This document shows, in pieces, positions 2,666-59,480 of a stretch of 64,000 nt of DNA; the stretch's first letter is position 1, and each line of letters starts with the position of its first letter. This stretch comes from Mrakia gelida. Taxonomy: Eukaryota > Basidiomycota > Tremellomycetes > Cystofilobasidiales > Mrakiaceae. The DNA lies in contig BRON01000011.1 in assembly GCA_024345305.1 (NCBI GenBank), positions 1,426,001 to 1,490,000 of the forward strand. Direction: 5' to 3'. The position numbers and the translations under genes were made by a program. The notes beneath the pieces are model-generated. The model was not told where the DNA came from, made no database searches, and worked only from the letters and a program-made list of their open reading frames with translations.

Positions 2666-4041
2666 TCAAGCATCAACAATCCTCGCCTCCAAAAGCGCGT
2701 CGACAATCCCATCGCCCTTCTGCCTCCTCCCTCCCACACTCGCAGCAAGCTCCAACTGATCCTTCAACACCCCCTTCCCAAACCTAACCATCGACTCCAT
2801 CGATTTTGCATGCCTGCAAACGAGCGAGTACTCCAACTTCCCCTTCGCAAGAGCCGACGATCGTTCGAGGCACGACGCGAGCTCGACGAGGTCGAGGACG
2901 CTCTTCCCGACGAAGACGACCTTCTGAAGTCGATGCCGCTCGTCGAAGAACGGAAGTCGGATGGAGGTGAGGAGAGTAGGAGTAGGTTCGGGTTCGGATC
3001 TCCAGTCGTCTGAGGAGATTTTGGGACCTTCGAGGGTGAACTCGGTTGGGTTGAGGAGTCGAAGGAGAGGAGTCCAGGTGTGAAGATCGGCGGGAGTGAA
3101 GGAAGAGTAGCGAAGCTTGAGGAGAGGGAGTGGGAGAGGATCTCGTTGACTTTGGTCGTAGCGGCAGATGGAGACGTAGAGGCTGGAAGCTGATTTGGTG
3201 GTAGAAGCTTTGGCGGACACCCAGCGGAAGGACTCGTCTTGTTCTTCGTCTTCGTAGTCCTCCTCGTTCTCGGACTCGGAGGAAGAGAGTAGCGCCGTTC
3301 CTACGATGTTGACTTTCGAGAACTTGGATCGGCTCGGGATGAGGGAGGGTCGATGGGAAGGTGAGGGAGAGAGGAGAGTGGATTCGAGAAGTGGTGGGGA
3401 GGACGACCTGAGCGGAGGAGGGAGGAAGAGGGTCAGCGACCTCGCTCGTTCGCGAAGAGCTCGAGCGTCCCTAGGAGAAAGACTTACAGTTTTGAAGGCG
3501 AAGAGAAGAGGAGCTTGCTCGGGAGTGATCTCGATGTCGTGGTAGAGAACCTGAGAGGCGAGTTCGAAGAGGTGGAAGGAGGTGAGGCAGAGCGACAACA
3601 GATCTCGTCTTCCCTTCGCTCCCTTTGCGACGAGCTCGACGACGATCCTGAGGAGTTCGTTGGGAAGCGTTTCGAGGGATGGAGAGGGACCATAGAGGGA
3701 GGATCTCGACTTCGAAGAGAACTTCTCCTGGAGGAAAAGGAGGAGGGAACGAGAAGCGTGGTCAGAGCGAGGGAGCGTGAGGGAGGAGAATGAAGACGGA
3801 AGGTTGGACAGGAACGGCTTACCAGAGACCACTCCCAAGCAGGTTTCTCGTCTCCCATCCCAGGAGTCTCGATCCAGTGTCCTTGAGGGAAGACGGTCTT
3901 GGAGAGGTCCTCGAGAAGTTGATCTTGAGCTCGATGCTGCCTCTCGAGATGGACGACCGTCGAAGCTTGAGTTCGGTTCGTTTCTCCTTGGAGGCGAGAC
4001 TGCTCCTCGAGCTGGGCGATTCGAGAGAGGACGAGATCCAT
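2666..4041 (-). CDS. F-box-like protein with N-terminal coiled coil
   Basis: Start ATG is 4039-4041. Exon 1 (3823-4041, 73 codons) is a heptad-rich coiled coil opening MDLVLSRIAQLEEQ. A GTAAGC/CTGAC/CAG intron joins in frame to exon 2 (3488-3727), which carries an F-box-like helix pair around LETLPNELLRIVVEL. The C-terminal part ends at TGA 2666-2668 and includes an acidic run (SESENEEDYEDEEQ) and the family segment LKLRYSSF...WTPLLRLLNP. It is a paralogue of the genes at 32972, 40941 and 44022, with the same exon plan. Such proteins usually hand substrates to SCF ubiquitin ligases; that role is inferred. One oddity: the canonical 80-nt second intron (3408-3487) would shift the frame away from the conserved C-terminus. 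A weaker AAG acceptor giving a 165-nt intron, or retention, keeps it open. It shares a 163-bp promoter gap with the hydrolase at 4205. Confidence 0.72.
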
Positions 4042-30707: not shown

Positions 30708-31145
30708 GCTGGTGTTGACGAGAAAGGGCCAAGATGGCGTTTGAGGTCAAGAGAGGGACGAGAGGAGGAGACACCTTGCGAGCTGTCGGGCGGAGAGTCG
30801 CAGCTGCGAGACTTCCAAACTCAGGCCGTCATCGAGAAAAGGTGAAGATTTTCAGAGTGACACCGAGGTCTCAGCCTCGCGTCTATCGTCTGTCGTTTCC
30901 TCGTCTTGATTCGCATTTTTCCGATGATCTCACCGAGAAAAGCTGGCGAGAAAAGAACTCGACGTCGCGTCGAGAACGAGTCGTCAAGCTTCGTTCTTTC
31001 CTTTCAAGCGGGCGAGGAGACCTCGCGAGAATCGGAACGGAAGACAAAGTAGCAATATTTTCTTATCAAAGCGACGATGCACGATCTCAAACCCTTCAGA
31101 GCGACCCTCCGAACGCTCAACTCCCCGTCGGTCTTCCTCCGTCGT
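30708..31145. other. Intergenic gap
   Basis: About 440 bp between the PH-domain gene start and the MYND gene end, both on the minus strand. No gene was seen. Confidence 0.55.
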
Positions 31146-32443
31146 TCACCACGTCGGCTTAAAGCAGAGGCGCTTGTGCCTCTTCCAGTCGGCTTTTTGA
31201 TGTTCTGGAGAGAAGATGAGTAGTGATAGATGTCAGTTAAGGTGTGCGCAGAAGGAGGAAGAACGAGACGGCGAACCCTTGGAGCAGTAGCGAACAGCGA
31301 GACACTAGGAAACGACGACGCGTCGAGACAGCGAAGATCAGCGAAGGAAGGGAAGATGAGAGGGTGCATGATCGACTCACCCTTGAACAAGCCATCATTT
31401 CTCGTCCCTCTCGCATCTTGGTACAAGTCGAGTCCTCCTCCTTCGTCCCGGCGGCGACTCGATGCTCGCACGTCCACCAGACCGAAAGCCTCCTCGCGCC
31501 GCTGACACTATTCAGCAGCGTCTCCTCCGCTGACATGCTCAGGAGAGCCGAACACATAATCCCTGTGGGCATACTGGAGCACGACAACATGCGTTCCGCG
31601 AGCTCTGGATGCTCGCGATCGAGGAGTTGAGCTCTGAGGGTAAGGAGGGTCTGTCGGGACTGAAGAGGCAAGGACGGGAGCGTTGAGGTCGGAGGGAGCT
31701 GATGGATGAGGGCCGAATAGATATGGAGGAGAGGTAAGAGGAATTTGGCGCCCGTAGCCACACCGTTGGGGACGTCCTGGGAGGGGAGCAAAAGGAACGG
31801 GAAGGCGAACATCAGCTCATCAGTCTTCGACATCTTGACAGCGAGAAAGAGAGCGGGAGGAAAGTAAAGCTCGTCGCAGACCTTGAAGAGAACAAATCGG
31901 TTTAGAATCTCGATAGTCGTAACAGAGAACTTCAGGTAGAGAGCTGAAGCCTCGTCTGGGAGGTCCCGAGCGAACCGTGGCCAGGTGCAGTTGCTCTCCG
32001 ATACGACGAAGACGACGACATTTGAGTAGCTGACGTAGATGTGCTGTGAGATTTGTCCGCTCGGGTCGCTGAGGGAGGATTCTAGTGCAAGGAAACTGTG
32101 AACGAGAGATGGGAGGTAAAGGGAAGCGAACTCTTCCTGGCAACGAAAGACGAGAACACCTCCTGAAAGTCAGATCGAAGCGATGGGCTGACGGGGAAAA
32201 AGAAGACTGACGCTGTACACTCGACGATCCTTGATTTCTCCGATAAGTAGGATGATCGTCTGGGTCAATTGAAGGAGAGGTGTGAGTTTAGGAAGAAGCG
32301 AAGAAGGCGCGAAGAGATGGATTCCTCACCTCTGTCCGCTCGCGGACTACCTCCAAGGATTCCGCCGTTCTAGGGGTTGCAGGTCGACCGTCCTGAGTGA
32401 GGCGAAGAAGACGAGCTATCGTTTCCGGAGATGACCGATCCAT
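31146..32443 (-). CDS. MYND zinc-finger protein
   Basis: ATG at 32441-32443 (MDRSSPETIARLLRLTQDGR). A mostly helical body of about 250 residues follows with no known domain (EEFASLYLPSLVHSFLALES, LYFPPALFLAVKM). The C-terminus forms a MYND finger once two introns are removed: CEHRV, STCTKM, MMACSRCLAVRYCSKEHQKA, then DWKRHKRLCFKP and TW-stop at 31146-31148. The C..C, C..C, YC..EHQ and DW..HK..C spacing is the family signature. MYND fingers bind proline-rich peptides of partner proteins; whether this one works in transcription or signalling cannot be told. The intron in the finger carries GACGCGTC (31317). It lies divergently next to an F-box-like gene, an arrangement seen again in decayed form at 59170-60797. 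Confidence 0.85.
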
Positions 32444-40940: not shown

Positions 40941-42216
40941 CTATGGTTTGTCGTCGACGTTCCCTTCCCCGTCCGTCTCAGGCTTCATCACATCCACCCG
41001 CAACACCGTCCCCCTACTGTACACCTCGAGGTCTGGAGGAGCGAGTTCCAAAAACCGCCTGCTAATATCGTGCTCCTCGATCTCTTCCACCTCGCATCCC
41101 CCGACCAAGAGTCTGTTCGACATCTCAAACTGCAGCGTCTTCTCTGAGCTCTCCCCTCGCAGAAGACACTCCGAGAGTCCGAACGCGCTTTCTTCTCCTA
41201 CTGTGACGGGGATCGAGCGAGGCCCAAATGCCCTGAAGGACTCGAGACGCGTCCATACGAGGGAAAACGAAAGATCCTCCGTCGAAAGGAAAACGGGACT
41301 CGCGTGTTGAAGTTTGTAGTTGGCGGCGACGATCTGGAAGCTCCGAGGATCTAGAAGCCGAAGGAGGGGGGACCAAGCTCAGATGGTGGATCTGTCGTCA
41401 GTCCAGAGGACGAGGCGTTTCAATTGGAGGAGGGGGTGATGTTGAGGAACGTGGAACAAGGGACCGAGGTCCGATGCGATGAAGTCGCCGCCACGACTGA
41501 GGACGAGCTTTTGAGGCAGGAGGACAGAACGGATCCTATCCGAGTAAGCAAAACCTTGTGACAGCTGAGGAGCAGAAGGAAGGGAACTTCAGAGTCACCA
41601 AAAGACAAAAGACGGGTCGAAGGGACGGACTAACCCTGCTGAAGACAAACTCTGCAGCATCCTTGGAGTCCAGCACCAGCTGGGGTCCGTATATCGGGTG
41701 CGTGGCTGAGGGAAGAAGCCTGTACGAGCATCGTCCGAGACGCAGCTGGTCGGATCGAGGAAGAAGGGAGACGATGAAGTCGAGGAGTTCGGTTGGGAGG
41801 GATTCGAGGGAGGTGGGAGGTCCAGCGTGGGGAGCGACGGTGAGAGGAGGTGATAAGTACTTTTCCTGATGGAGAGGTATGTATATAAGCAAATAGGTGG
41901 TATGAGTGCTTGAGAGGCAGGTTAGAGGACTCGAGCAGGGACGAGAGGAGGGGAGGGGAGGGAGGAAAGGCGAGCTCACCAACGAGTAAACCCATCGACC
42001 TTCCTTCCTGCCTTCCCTCGAACTCTCCCAGATCCAAAACCCCTCCGAAGCCTTAGCCAGCTCTCAAATGACTCGATCCTGATCCTGGACGACGGTCTTG
42101 AGGGCTTCGTTCTCGGACGAGAGGTGGGCGACGTTGGAGGAAAGAAGGAAGATGGAGGACTGTTGCTGACGAGCTTGTTCCTCGAGCTGGCCGATTCGAG
42201 CGAGGACGAGTTCCAT
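40941..42216 (-). pseudogene. Decayed F-box-like gene with two in-frame TGA codons
   Basis: ATG at 42214-42216 starts a coiled coil (MELVLARIGQLEEQARQQQ) close to the members at 4041 and 32972. Codon 51 is TGA (42064-42066) where the intact paralogue has Glu; the frame continues ELAKASEGFWIWESSREG as in the family. After a GTGAGC intron the F-box-like exon is intact (EKYLSPPLTVAPHAGPPTSL, ESLPTELLDFIVSLLPRSDQ). In the last part a second TGA (41379-41381) precedes AWSPLLRLLDPRSFQIV, which again matches the family (AWAPFLNLVNP). The frame then stays open for about 145 codons to TAG 40941-40943. Two stops in an otherwise conserved frame point to a recent pseudogene, unless both are base errors. 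Upstream gap to the plus-strand gene is 288 bp. Confidence 0.75.
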
Positions 42217-42503
42217 TCCAGAGCGAGGACGAGAGGTGGAAAGGGGGGGCGAGGAGGAAGAAGAAAGGGAGACACGTGTTTTGGGAGGGAGGAAGGAGTC
42301 GGGAGGGAGAAAGAGGAAGCTCGTTCGAGCTCACCTCGAAGTGCCTTCCTTTTGCCTGACGGGCATCTTCCTGTTCCGAGAGAAAACCTTCATCATGTCG
42401 TATCAATCTCATCAGAGGGTCAGTCGCCGTCTTCGCCTTGGTCTCGAACCATCTCTTGTGCTGACCGGCTTGCTCTTTGGGCGTCGTCAAAAGGCTCGAA
42501 GGG

Positions 42504-50253: not shown

Positions 50254-53200
50254 TCAAAGGAAACCCTTCCCGACCCTGTGTCCAGCGAAGAGGTTCTTGG
50301 GCTTGCTCGTCTCTTGATCGGACGTCGACGACGCGGCGACTTCGATGAGAGGACAAACGGGTGCTTTGACGAGGTGGCCGTAGGTCGCTCCGGCCCCTGT
50401 AGGTTGAGAAATGGAAAGGGTGGACGTTGTCAGCTGGAGAAGGAGGAGAGAGCGCGAGGGACGGGAGGGGAGCGAAGAGGGAGAGGGACGAACAGATCAC
50501 GACACCTGATGAAGGGAAGGAAAGGGCACGAGGTCAGCAACTGTGAAAGGAAGAGCTCGAGGCCGTTCAAAGCTCACCATTCGTCCATCCGAACCCAGTC
50601 ACGACCTGAAAGAAAGGGGAACAGCGAGGGAAGATGAGAGGGGGCGGGGTCAGCTTCGACTCGCGACTCGACTCGACGCGAGATCCGACTCGAACGAGGG
50701 TCTGCTTACCTCGTACTCCCCTCCACCACCAGCAGCGTCAATGGCAGTCGCATCAAACTTCTCGAACATGTTTCCCGTCGAGGTCGAGTCGGCGTGAGTG
50801 ATGTTGAGCTCCTCCTCCGGAAGCTGAGCGAGAATGCCCGGGATCGATCCTCCCGTTGAGTACCACGAGCAGAATGCCGCACTGAGGTATCGGTTGACCT
50901 GAGGTCGCGAGTTGCGAGAGAAAGGGAGAGGTCAGTTTGGGAAGAAGGCGAGCAAGGGAAGAGAACGAGAAGCGACGCGAAAGGACTCACGACTTCCCCG
51001 AGCAGGACGTCCCTCCATCCTTCCCCGACCGTGACGTTCTGATCTCCTGGTCGATCTCCCAGCAGAATCACCGTTCCGTTGTCGACCCCTTCTTGAACGG
51101 GGAGAGAAGACTCGTTCATCCCGAGCTGACCGTACGGTACAAGGTCGAACGAGGAGGAGTTGGAGGGCCGGAAGGTCGTGTAAGGAGTCGAGGTGAGGTT
51201 AGTAGGGAGTCGAGCGAGAGCTTTGGTCAGGATGTACTGGTGAGGTGGCCAGCTATGATGATGACGAGGGACGGGAGACAAGTCAGCGAGGGGAAGACGA
51301 GAAGGGAAGAGGGGGAGAGGGTGACTCACGCGTTGGCTGAGACGCGTCGAGAAAAGGAAACGACGAGTCAACATCAGCTGCGGCGTCGAGGAGGTCAGGA
51401 AGGGGAGCTCGAGAAAACTCACGGAAGTCCCAGTTGAGGTTACTTTCGGTGAGAGTGCAAGGAACCGATCCGTTGTACTTCTCGAGCATCAAGTTGAGTC
51501 CGCTGAAAGCTTGGAAGAGCTTCTGCTCGTCGTTCTCGACCTCCTCGGGGATGATGCCGAGCCCTGATAAGCGAACGACGGAGGGAGTTCAGTACAAGTC
51601 AGGGACGAGAGAGGTTTGATCCGAGCTCACAGAAGGGGTAGAAAGCAGCGAGGGAGAAGAAGTCGGATCGAGACGAGGAGGTCGTGTTCTGTTTGGAGTC
51701 GAGAGAGCAGCCGCGTCAGTTTTCGCGACCAAGGCGAGAGTCAACAGCGAAGTTAGAGGACTCACGAAGTCGTAGAAAGCAAGTTTCGTAGGATCCCAGA
51801 AGAGATCAAGTATCGCGTCCTTGAGAAGAGCTCCCTGGTGGTAGTGCAGATCGGCCTTCGACGTCGCGTTGTCTCGTTTGATGGTCGTGCTTGTCGAGTT
51901 GACGCACGAGTAGGTCTCGTACAGACCTCCGAGCTGATTGAGAGAACGGCAGGCCGAAGAGAAGAAGTCAGCAGCGGAACAAAATACGAACAGACGCGTC
52001 AGGTCAGAAGGACGAACGAGGTAGTGGTCCGAGGCAAGAAGAGCGTTGAGATCGACGGGAGCGAGCTCTCGAATGCTATTTCAAGGCGAAGAGAAGTGGG
52101 AAAGAGGTCAGCCAGGAGATTCAGAGGAAGGAGAGGGACGAAAGTTCAGGAACTCACGCGAGCGAACGAAGACCCTGCAGCGGATCAGTCAAGTTCTTCC
52201 CGTAATCCTTCATCCACCGAGCCGTGTAGTCCCATCCTGACTCGGCTCCCGAGGCGAGTTGAATGTAAAGATCCTCGGCTTGGGTCTCGTTGAGAGGAGG
52301 ATCGGAAAGGTTGACCGTCTCCCAGTCCTCGACGTAGCCTTCGGGTCGAGGCGCGGTGTTGAGGAAGACGTTGTATCGTCCGACCTGATGAGTCTTGTTG
52401 GTGTAGGGAGACGTGACGGCGAAAGTTCGGTTGGTTTGCCACCACTGGAGCTCGGCTGTTTGAAGAAGAAGGAGAAAGCGGAGGTCAGTTCGAGGAAGGA
52501 GGAGGCGAGAGGGAGGGAGGGACGCGACGAACCGTCAGCGAGAGGGAGAGCTCTCTCGAGGATTGATGTGTCGTTCGTGAATCGGACGTAGAGGTCGAGC
52601 ATCTGTGATTAAAGAATCACGAGGTCGAGTCAGAGAGAGAGCTCGAGAAGGATGCTTCGCCGAGAGGACGACGAACCTGAATGAAGACGGGAGGCTGGGA
52701 TCGGTTCAAGCTGCCGAGGAGAGGACCAGAGTCAGCTCGAGTTCTCAAGACACTTCACAGCTTCGAGATGACTCACTAGTACTTCCTCCCTCCGTTGGGG
52801 ATGAATCCGTAGAGCTGAATCTGGTCCATGAAGTTGTCGAGAATGTCTCGAGCGTACGTAGCGAGTCCAGAGTGAAGAAGTCCTTCGACGATCCTGGAAG
52901 ACGAGAAGAGAGACGGTCAACGAGTGAAGATTCGGATGATGAAGAGGAATATGCTTACCAGAAAGAGTCCCTGCAAGGAGAGAAGAAAGCCAGAAGGAGG
53001 GGCGCGTCAGTTTTCGAACGAAGGAGGACACGACTTCTTCGGAGACGACGTACCAGTAGTAGACCTCGCCTGCAAGGAGAAACGAAAGCCAGAAGGAGGG
53101 ACGCGTCGGTTTTCGAACGAAGGAGGACACGACTTCATCGGAGACGACGTACGATATCGTCCTCCCGGTACCACGACAGTGTGGTTGAGAGGGATGAGAG

Positions 53201-54209
53201 ACGAGTCACAGGCGTTTCCAGCACCACAGAGAGTGGAGTTGTCGGTCTCTCTGCGAAGAGGAAAGAAGTGAAGGACAAGCGAGAACGAGCAGGTCAGCTT
53301 CGGCTCTCGGCGAGATATCGCTATGGAAACCACGAGAATGGACCGTCGACGTACCGGATGAGACCTGACCAATATCCGATAACCTCGCCAATCCATGCTC
53401 GGACGACGGGATCCTCGACAGTCTCGAGGAAAGGGGTTGCCGACGCGTTGAACGAGGAATCAATCTGAACGGCGACGAGTTCGGTTCCCTCGGCAGTCTT
53501 GGAAGATCAGAAGAAAAAGAAGGATTTTATCGATCAGCTTGGGTTGTTCTCTGTCTGCCTGCTGGCCGCGGCCAGGGAATCGAGCGAGATGCGAGCGGGG
53601 TGAGACGGGGAGGAGGACGAACGAAGTAGGTGTTGACGAAGTCCTCGAGCTCGCCGACTGCACAGAGAAAGCGACGTTCAAAGGGTCAGCTGAGCCCTCT
53701 AGATTGGGCTGAGCAGCTCCCAGAAAAGTTTCGAGCAGAGCTACTCGCAGATGAAGACTGAACTCACCGGTCAAATTCGAGCCCGACGCTTTGGCAGCTT
53801 CAAACGCGAGGAGAGTCTCGTTGTAAGAGAACTTGGTCGGCTTGTCCGAGAAGGTCTTCGAATCGGGGAAGATTTTAGCGAGCTGAACCGTTTGCATGAT
53901 CTGTGAGGTCCAGAAGAAGATGAGAAGAAGGTCAGCCAGAGCGTCATGGTCGAAGAGCATGGAGGAGATCGAGAGACTCACGTCTCCAGCACAGTAGGTT
54001 CCCGAGGGACACCATGACTGGTACTCAGGATCAGGGAAGCTCTCGATGAGGGCTGCTGCTGGGAGGGTCGAGCTGGGAGAAGCAGTCGGCTCGGCTGAAG
54101 TAGTCGTTGAGGGAGTAGTTGAAGAGGCGACGCTCGAGATCGAGGAGGAGATCACTCCCGCCTGAGAGACTCCGGCGAGAAGGAGGAGTGGAAGAAGGAA
54201 GGAAGGCAT
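50254..54209 (-). CDS. Secreted alpha,alpha-trehalase (GH37)
   Basis: ATG 54207-54209 begins a signal peptide (MPSFLLPLLLLAGVSQAG) and a Ser/Thr-rich spacer. Family landmarks: WCPSGTYCAGDIMQTVQLAK, DSKTFSDKPTKF, signature 1 PGGRYREVYYWDSFW, DNFMDQIQLYGFIPNGGRKY, YNVFLNTAPRPEGYVEDWET, GWDYTARWMKD, signature 2 LNWDFPNAWPPHQYI, GGGGEYEVVTGFGWTNGV. Stop TGA 50254-50256. It splits trehalose to two glucoses outside the cell or in the vacuole; many N-glycosylation sites (NET, NLT, NRS, NDT) agree. More than a dozen introns, several around tiny exons: 16 nt (53054-53069), 12 nt (52959-52970), 7 nt (51330-51336) and 12 nt (50494-50505). Both active-site signatures exist only after exact splicing. No EF-hand-like N-terminal calcium site, so it is not the cytosolic neutral type. 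Confidence 0.93.
52971..53053 (-). repeat. Twin intron copy A (83 nt)
   Basis: Spliceosomal intron of the trehalase gene with donor GTACGT, branch site ACTGACGCGCC and acceptor TTGCAG. It matches the next intron upstream (53070-53152) at 78 of 83 positions with no gaps. Confidence 0.92.
53070..53152 (-). repeat. Twin intron copy B (83 nt)
   Basis: Same length, donor and acceptor as copy A; it contains an exact GACGCGTC (53100-53107). Only five substitutions separate the two, and a 16-nt exon lies between them. Confidence 0.92.
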
Positions 54210-58622: not shown

Positions 58623-59169
58623 GAGACGGTGGAGGTTTATCTATGGTTTTGATCTACACATAGGACACTTTGTTTTTGCTTTGCACGAAGAAGGTCCAAG
58701 GGGATTGACGGGCATCGAGAACAGAAAGGGAGAGGGAGGCAGAGAAGGGGAAGGCTGAGAGAAAGGCGGAGTTGTTGAGTGGAAGGATGATGCTGTTAGA
58801 AGTGTGTTTGCCAGTGCTACAACTAAGGAGGGGTATCTGAAGGACGAAGAGTTCGAATTCGATGTGAGCCGTCGACGCGTCAACATCGTCCGGCAAGGGC
58901 GTCGAGGTCTCTGGGAGCAAAGCGAGGAGTCTCAAAGCTCTGTCCGTTGAGGATTGAAAGAGAGTGTAATTTCCGTCGGCATTCGATCTGAGTCTGGGCT
59001 CACGAAGAATCGAGAAAGCCGAAGGGACAAGCACCCTCGCGTGCCAGCTCGACGCGTCGCTCCACGTCCGTCGTTGGGAAGCTTTGTCGCGATGGAAATC
59101 TTTCGAGCAACCAATTACGTTCTAGGTATGTAGGTGTAGCTCATCGATCTCGCTCCTGAAAACTCAGCC
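58623..59169. other. Intergenic gap
   Basis: About 550 bp with two GACGCGTC copies (58874, 59051). No gene was seen. Confidence 0.5.
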
Positions 59170-59480
59170 CAAACTAAACCCGTCGCGTCGGCGTCGAAGT
59201 CGGCTTGAAGTAGAAGCGCTTGTGCCTCTTCCAGTCGGTTCCTTGATGTTCTGAAGGCAAGGAGAGGAAGAGACGATGTTGGTTGAAGTGTGGGAGGAGC
59301 AGGGAGGACGAGAGAGTGGACCGCTTGAACAGGCGCGAGCAGCGAAGCGCCAAAGAAAACGACGTCGACGCGTTGAGCAAACGAGAGTCAGGGACGAGTT
59401 TCGACGAGAACGAGAAAATTCTAACGTGGGCTGTTGACTCAGACTCAAGCAGACTGCTGCATCTTCGCTCATACGCCACG
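59170..59480 (-). pseudogene. Decayed MYND zinc-finger fragment
   Basis: On the minus strand, after a CTTCAG acceptor, the frame reads EHQGTDWKRHKRFYFKPTS, nearly the same as the end of the MYND gene at 31146 (EHQKADWKRHKRLCFKP). DNA around it is also alike: the preceding intron's branch region and a degenerate GACGCGTC-like segment are recognisable. The last zinc Cys is now Tyr, the upstream acceptor has lost its AG, and the stop is displaced. No N-terminal body was found. It appears to be the remnant of a duplicated MYND gene, beside an F-box-like gene in the same divergent order. Confidence 0.65.

Follow-up and report, generated by a model that had tools for sequence, protein, structure and literature searches.

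Near-identical neighbouring introns in a trehalase gene of Mrakia gelida point to local intron copying and to gene conversion between paralogues

Introns 5 and 6 of a trehalase gene of Mrakia gelida (gene W, Table 1) are a real, clean and recent intron copy, and the same pair is present in a second trehalase gene, paralogue B. We consider it probable that one of the two introns was copied exactly to a site 16 nt away after the gene had been duplicated, and that conversion subsequently brought the pair to the other paralogue. Gene W lies in the 64,000-nucleotide stretch of DNA analysed here, which we call the window.

Gene model and predicted splicing

In gene W, PF01204 matches fell in exons 8 and 11, and homologues of the gene carry a trehalase annotation. 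The best protein matches were two proteins of Mrakia frigida (88% and 77% identity) followed by one of Phaffia rhodozyma (62%). The N terminus, judged by eye, looks like a signal peptide. When introns 5 and 6 were removed around the 16-nt exon, the 21-exon model gave the PGGRYREVYYWDSFW motif and an intact frame of 749 amino acids; the centre of the motif is coded by exons 6 and 7 together. In this model, a stop appears at codon 257 when exon 6 is skipped and at codon 290 when either intron 5 or intron 6 is retained. Because each of these alternatives ends in an early stop, the predicted two-intron splicing around the 16-nt exon is well supported.

Gene W contains more tiny exons, of 7 nt (51330-51336), 12 nt (52959-52970) and 12 nt (50494-50505). 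In M. frigida, the parts of the proteins that correspond to exons 6-7 and to the surroundings of the 7-nt exon have a disturbed appearance, with proteins P0001 and P0002 showing odd differences precisely at the microexons.

Table 1. Features of gene W, its paralogue and the tract of raised identity between them (window positions unless a contig is given)
Feature	Position	Strand	Description
Gene W	50254..54209	-	GH37 trehalase, 21 exons/20 introns, 749 aa; hand-built model via alignment with the paralogue
Exon 5	53153..53250	-	Ends ...PGGRY(R)
Intron 5	53070..53152	-	First copy, 83 nt, branch-like site CCGAC
Exon 6	53054..53069	-	16-nt microexon, codes (R)EVYY(W)
Intron 6	52971..53053	-	Second copy, 83 nt, branch-like site CTGAC
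Exon 7	52959..52970	-	12-nt microexon, codes (W)DSF(W)
Intron 7	52894..52958	-	65 nt, unrelated to introns 5 and 6; 64/65 identical to intron 7 of the paralogue
Tract core	52885..53165	.	Core of the likely gene-conversion tract; 276/281 positions identical between W and B
Paralogue B	C11:1342458-1338335		Trehalase, 751 aa, 21 introns

Introns 5 and 6 are near-identical from end to end

The first-pass annotation had described two introns of 83 nt here that align without gaps and differ at five positions. The positions, the gapless alignment and the count (5 of 83) were all confirmed, with the gene on the minus strand; the differences are at positions 16, 45, 52, 70 and 72 in intron orientation. 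Identity between the two is 94%, against a mean of 55.4% (s.d. 5.4 points, maximum 67.7%) for the other 189 of the 190 intron pairs of gene W. The copies are exact from GT to AG, with 83 of 83 nt aligned, and they stand in the same orientation with a period of 99 nt. The repeat is listed as 84 nt because both introns are followed by an exon that starts with G. This near-identity supports the shared recent origin that had been proposed for the two introns. An assembly artefact is an unlikely source of the pair, as the same pair is found at two loci, each with differences of its own.

The two introns had also been said to share their splice signals, and this holds for the ends but not fully for the branch region. 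A branch-like CTGAC is present in window intron 6 and in both paralogue introns, whereas window intron 5 has CCGAC (53105-53109). A CTNAY site is missing from two of the 20 introns of gene W (introns 5 and 7) and, among the 18 of 21 paralogue introns looked at, from introns 7 and 14. Given its CCGAC, window intron 5 is possibly spliced only weakly; because its ends match those of intron 6, poor use of it could cause exon 6 to be skipped and yield a dead message.

Copies of the unit were found only in two trehalase genes

It had been suggested that copies of the unit might exist elsewhere. We searched the genome (34.86 Mb in 25 contigs). With the 84-nt unit, four matches were found at E values up to 10, namely the window pair plus C11:1341181-1341264 and C11:1341280-1341363. 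The suggestion was thus borne out for one more pair, in the second trehalase gene, and for no other place reached by the 84-nt search. Patterns of 25 and 27 nt taken from the ends, with up to three mismatches, hit the same four places in the genome and nothing else, and reversed control patterns had no genome match. A 23-nt core was found at seven genome sites, namely the four copies and three others at three mismatches. These three sit within intron-like stretches of other loci and were rejected as copies, with full-unit alignment scores of 14.5, 18 and 23 compared to 83 for a perfect match. In control searches of the genome, intron 7 matched itself and intron 7 of the paralogue, while intron 2 and the paralogue-only intron 18 each matched only themselves. 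The searches of the 34.86-Mb genome gave no indication that recent copies are dispersed as a family; the count of four is a lower bound, given that strongly diverged copies could escape such searches.

We also compared a sample of 280,001 bases all against all by BLAST. The sample, non-random and equal to 0.8% of the genome, comprised the window, a 16-kb region around the paralogue, and twenty 10-kb pieces from contigs C1-C4. Eight of the 44 resulting pairs were 35-250 nt long with at least 85% identity, and four of these eight were the trehalase copies. The other four, when printed, had no matching intron ends in this sample: one corresponded to the end of a coding exon in paralogous genes, two to the beginning of a family of coding genes, and the last (50 nt, 86%) was of no clear nature. 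A rough intron scan of 732 nearby candidate pairs placed the pair of the paralogue at 0.93 and the next best at 0.37. The scan is weak: it yielded 592 candidates versus 403 in shuffled sequence, and it required a branch pattern absent from window intron 5, so that the window pair went undetected.

A 14-nt branch-site word occurs exactly in introns 13 (51712-51725) and 6 (53003-53016) of gene W. It was present four times in the 280,001 sampled bases, and window introns 6 and 13 together with paralogue introns 5 and 6 would account for all four.

The first-pass annotation had raised the prospect of introner-like spread, in which the pair would belong to many mobile, intron-creating copies throughout the genome. 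Near-identical introns at unrelated exon sites with common splice signals are what such an element would produce; however, the four copies found all lie in two paralogues, and the second pair is explained by conversion (see below). The fold is ordinary. Compared with shuffled sequences, introns 5 and 6 had no unusual fold (z of 0.16 and -0.32), and one of six other gene W introns folded in the same analysis reached a z of -2.61. No Rfam match was obtained in 1001 bases up to an E value of 1. Terminal inverted repeats were not seen either, the first 20 nt of intron 5 agreeing with the reverse complement of its last 20 at 4 of 20 positions, and no target-site duplication was visible by eye in the printed flanks of introns 5 and 6. 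In copy number, in fold and in repeats or target-site duplication, the three marks tested, the pair did not resemble introner-like elements. With copies found only in the two trehalase paralogues, spread of this kind lost its support and appears very improbable.

A bounded tract of identity between the paralogues

Paralogue B lies on the same contig as gene W, with 134 kb between the genes and 138 kb between the intron pairs. The two proteins are 85% identical (643 of 755 columns). Upstream of the motif, synonymous divergence (dS) was 0.86; in the region beginning 66 codons past the motif start it was 0.76. With a dS of about 0.8, W and B are old paralogues. Fourteen of the 17 introns compared between them had 54-81% identity; by contrast, introns 5, 6 and 7 were 96%, 99% and 98% identical.

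The core of the tract around these introns has five differences in 281 nt, against a dS of about 0.8 outside it, and a wider segment (52770-53233) is 96% identical. The 16 codons of the tract, chosen after the tract had been seen, had no difference at 10 synonymous sites; dS for the 50 codons that follow the tract was 0.29. The score of the best high-identity segment was reached in 0 of 2000 shuffles and in 0 of 2000 shuffles of 30-nt blocks, which allow for the fact that the tract was picked for its likeness. Because the block of identity is bounded and extends across exons and introns alike, it points to ectopic gene conversion having shared introns 5-7 between W and B. A sharply bounded tract of raised identity that contains the intron, the criterion for an intron transfer, was thus found here. 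As judged from relative divergence only, the recipient paralogue would have been without the intron before the transfer.

Introns 5-7 could instead have been kept alike by selection and without any conversion, for example for the splicing of two microexons, and the tract does sit on the 16- and 12-nt microexons. Nevertheless, the introns that flank the 7-nt exon 16 are only 74% and 81% identical between the paralogues, the synonymous sites of the tract are unchanged as well, and selection of this kind would leave the likeness of intron 5 to intron 6 unexplained. We regard it as having very little chance of being correct.

Conversion between trehalase paralogues seems to have occurred in M. frigida also, in another part of the gene: its two proteins (P0001 and P0002) are identical at 90 of 90 positions over residues 331-420 and at 61 of 88 over residues 20-130. 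At both ends P0001 is nearer to paralogue B and P0002 nearer to the window gene, so the gene duplication probably predates the split of the two species. The motif region of a distant trehalase-family gene on contig C6 is read through without introns; this gene is too distant to decide the earlier state.

Order of copying and conversion

There are six variable positions among the four intron copies. At positions 16, 52 and 72, intron 5 differs from intron 6 in each of the two genes, positions 45 and 70 are private to window intron 5, and position 55 groups the copies by gene and not by intron. As three of the six sites group the two copies of intron 5 together and the two copies of intron 6 together, the copying most likely preceded the conversion. 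If introns change at about the synonymous rate, both events would have taken place long after the gene duplication.

Position 55 may reflect a double change, or introns 5 and 6 may convert each other. In the latter case their similarity would be a poor clock, the age of the copying would be underestimated, and the dating of the copying to after the duplication would be weaker. Exchange between the two introns would also suit a different history, in which both intron positions are old and the sequence of one intron was replaced by that of the adjacent intron, without any gain of an intron, through local conversion or a template switch that the similar splice-site ends made easier. The gene is dense in introns and has tiny exons (7, 12, 12 and 16 nt), which makes two old neighbouring introns plausible, and conversion seems to be active at the gene both here and in M. 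frigida. Two points weigh on the other side: unrelated introns would be expected to share little sequence from which conversion could start, and the replaced stretch would have to begin and end precisely at the splice sites. We consider overwriting unlikely, while giving it some weight.

How the intron may have been copied

The Phaffia protein is collinear with that of gene W at PGGRYREVYYWDSYW, and gene W has no added codons there. By eye, no more than 1 nt at either exon junction is common to the flank and the intron end. Full-length homology to the donor with exact ends, and unchanged coding at the insertion site, are among the features by which an intron transposition is recognized, and both were found. 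Among the origins put forward in the first-pass annotation, intron transposition, as a single transposition or copying event, is the best reading.

Another of these origins, a plain tandem duplication of DNA comprising an intron and its flanking exon followed by loss of the extra exon copy, would account for two adjacent copies in the same orientation with a period of 99 nt. Such a duplication would be expected to double the 16-nt exon, however, and the extra 16 nt would then have to be deleted exactly; the motif depends on the existing 16-nt exon, and the protein aligns collinearly with that of Phaffia. With no codons added around the introns relative to the P. rhodozyma protein, plain tandem duplication is disfavoured, and we regard it as quite improbable.

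The exact ends, the flanks sharing no more than 1 nt and the lack of an added codon fit an intron that was re-inserted as a unit, either by way of RNA or by a precise template switch; they are also compatible with an older intron next to it having been overwritten. From the near-identity, the precise ends, the collinear coding, the four copies found and the bounded tract, we infer the following order of events, including a step at the RNA level. Once the trehalase paralogues had separated, as their relative divergence suggests, one intron would have been duplicated with exact ends and placed 16 nt from its original position within that gene. By the most likely route, the excised intron would have gone back into its own transcript, or into unwound DNA, at a nearby site, and the resulting sequence would then have become fixed in the genome. 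Ectopic gene conversion would subsequently have moved a block of ~280 nt containing intron 5, exon 6, intron 6, exon 7 and intron 7, with the outcome that the intron pair is now present in both paralogues. A more specific version of these events, that a spliceosome still holding the message re-inserted the intron 16 nt away and so produced a new intron and a 16-nt microexon within a conserved enzyme motif before conversion to the second gene, is possible but on balance doubtful. A precise switch of DNA template would leave the same product, and the RNA route has no direct mark in this sequence.

Comparison with known intron gains

In Drosophila Xdh, a new intron is said to have arisen by duplication of an existing intron; this phrase had no match in the open literature searched, and no description of the trehalase intron pair was recognized in the open-access literature searched.

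The portion of a review that we consulted (PMC3443670) lists 14 unambiguous intron transpositions and three intron transfers between paralogues, and the present case looks like an intron transposition followed by an intron transfer. In Mycosphaerella, according to the sections consulted of that review and of a second paper (PMC8469720), a spliceosomal intron yields a similar copy at another exon site, and the second paper speaks of seamless integration for fungal intron transposition. Unlike the Mycosphaerella case, the present one involves a single copy that lies within one gene, only 16 nt from its counterpart. Intron transfers in Chironomus, Aspergillus and Mycosphaerella are described in the same portion of the review as recombination between paralogues that carries an intron to the same position in the sister gene (PMC3443670), whereas the block that seems to have moved here holds three introns, two of them near-identical.

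Introner-like elements of Dothideomycetes can also sit close together in one gene, with four cases at distances of 145-626 bp in the part of the source consulted (PMC4457414). However, such elements are described in excerpts of two papers as multi-copy and as having stable predicted folds (PMC3443670, PMC8469720), by contrast to the four copies and ordinary fold seen here. The sister stwintrons of Hypoxylon are likewise repeated spliceosomal introns in a fungus; they number 23 and are complex and symmetrical in the account available to us in part (PMC8469720), whereas the trehalase introns are plain.

Most gained introns are without a known source, according to the consulted part of the review (PMC3443670). 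For the trehalase pair, the source can be seen, the copy is exact and lies only 16 nt from it, and the apparent passage to a second gene has left its trace in the sequence. Should relatives prove to lack one of the introns, the pair would offer a case of local intron birth that can be dated, in a yeast gene rich in introns. Such an example, if true, could be used to test re-insertion of an intron while the spliceosome holds the message.

Surroundings of the two genes

The paralogue-only intron 18 of the control searches, which had itself as its sole genome match, is an intron of 132 nt in paralogue B that is absent from gene W (L005:4835-4966). Two segments of the window (31140-31470 and 59141-59279) are 77-81% similar to DNA downstream of paralogue B (L005:3555-3946). 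The start of the coding gene family encountered in the BLAST sample, an ATG followed by a DLILARIGQLEEQ-like stretch, is found in the window at 3993-4041 and 42059-42315, and a DLILARIGQLEEQ-like start of this family also lies just downstream of paralogue B (L005:2236-2490).
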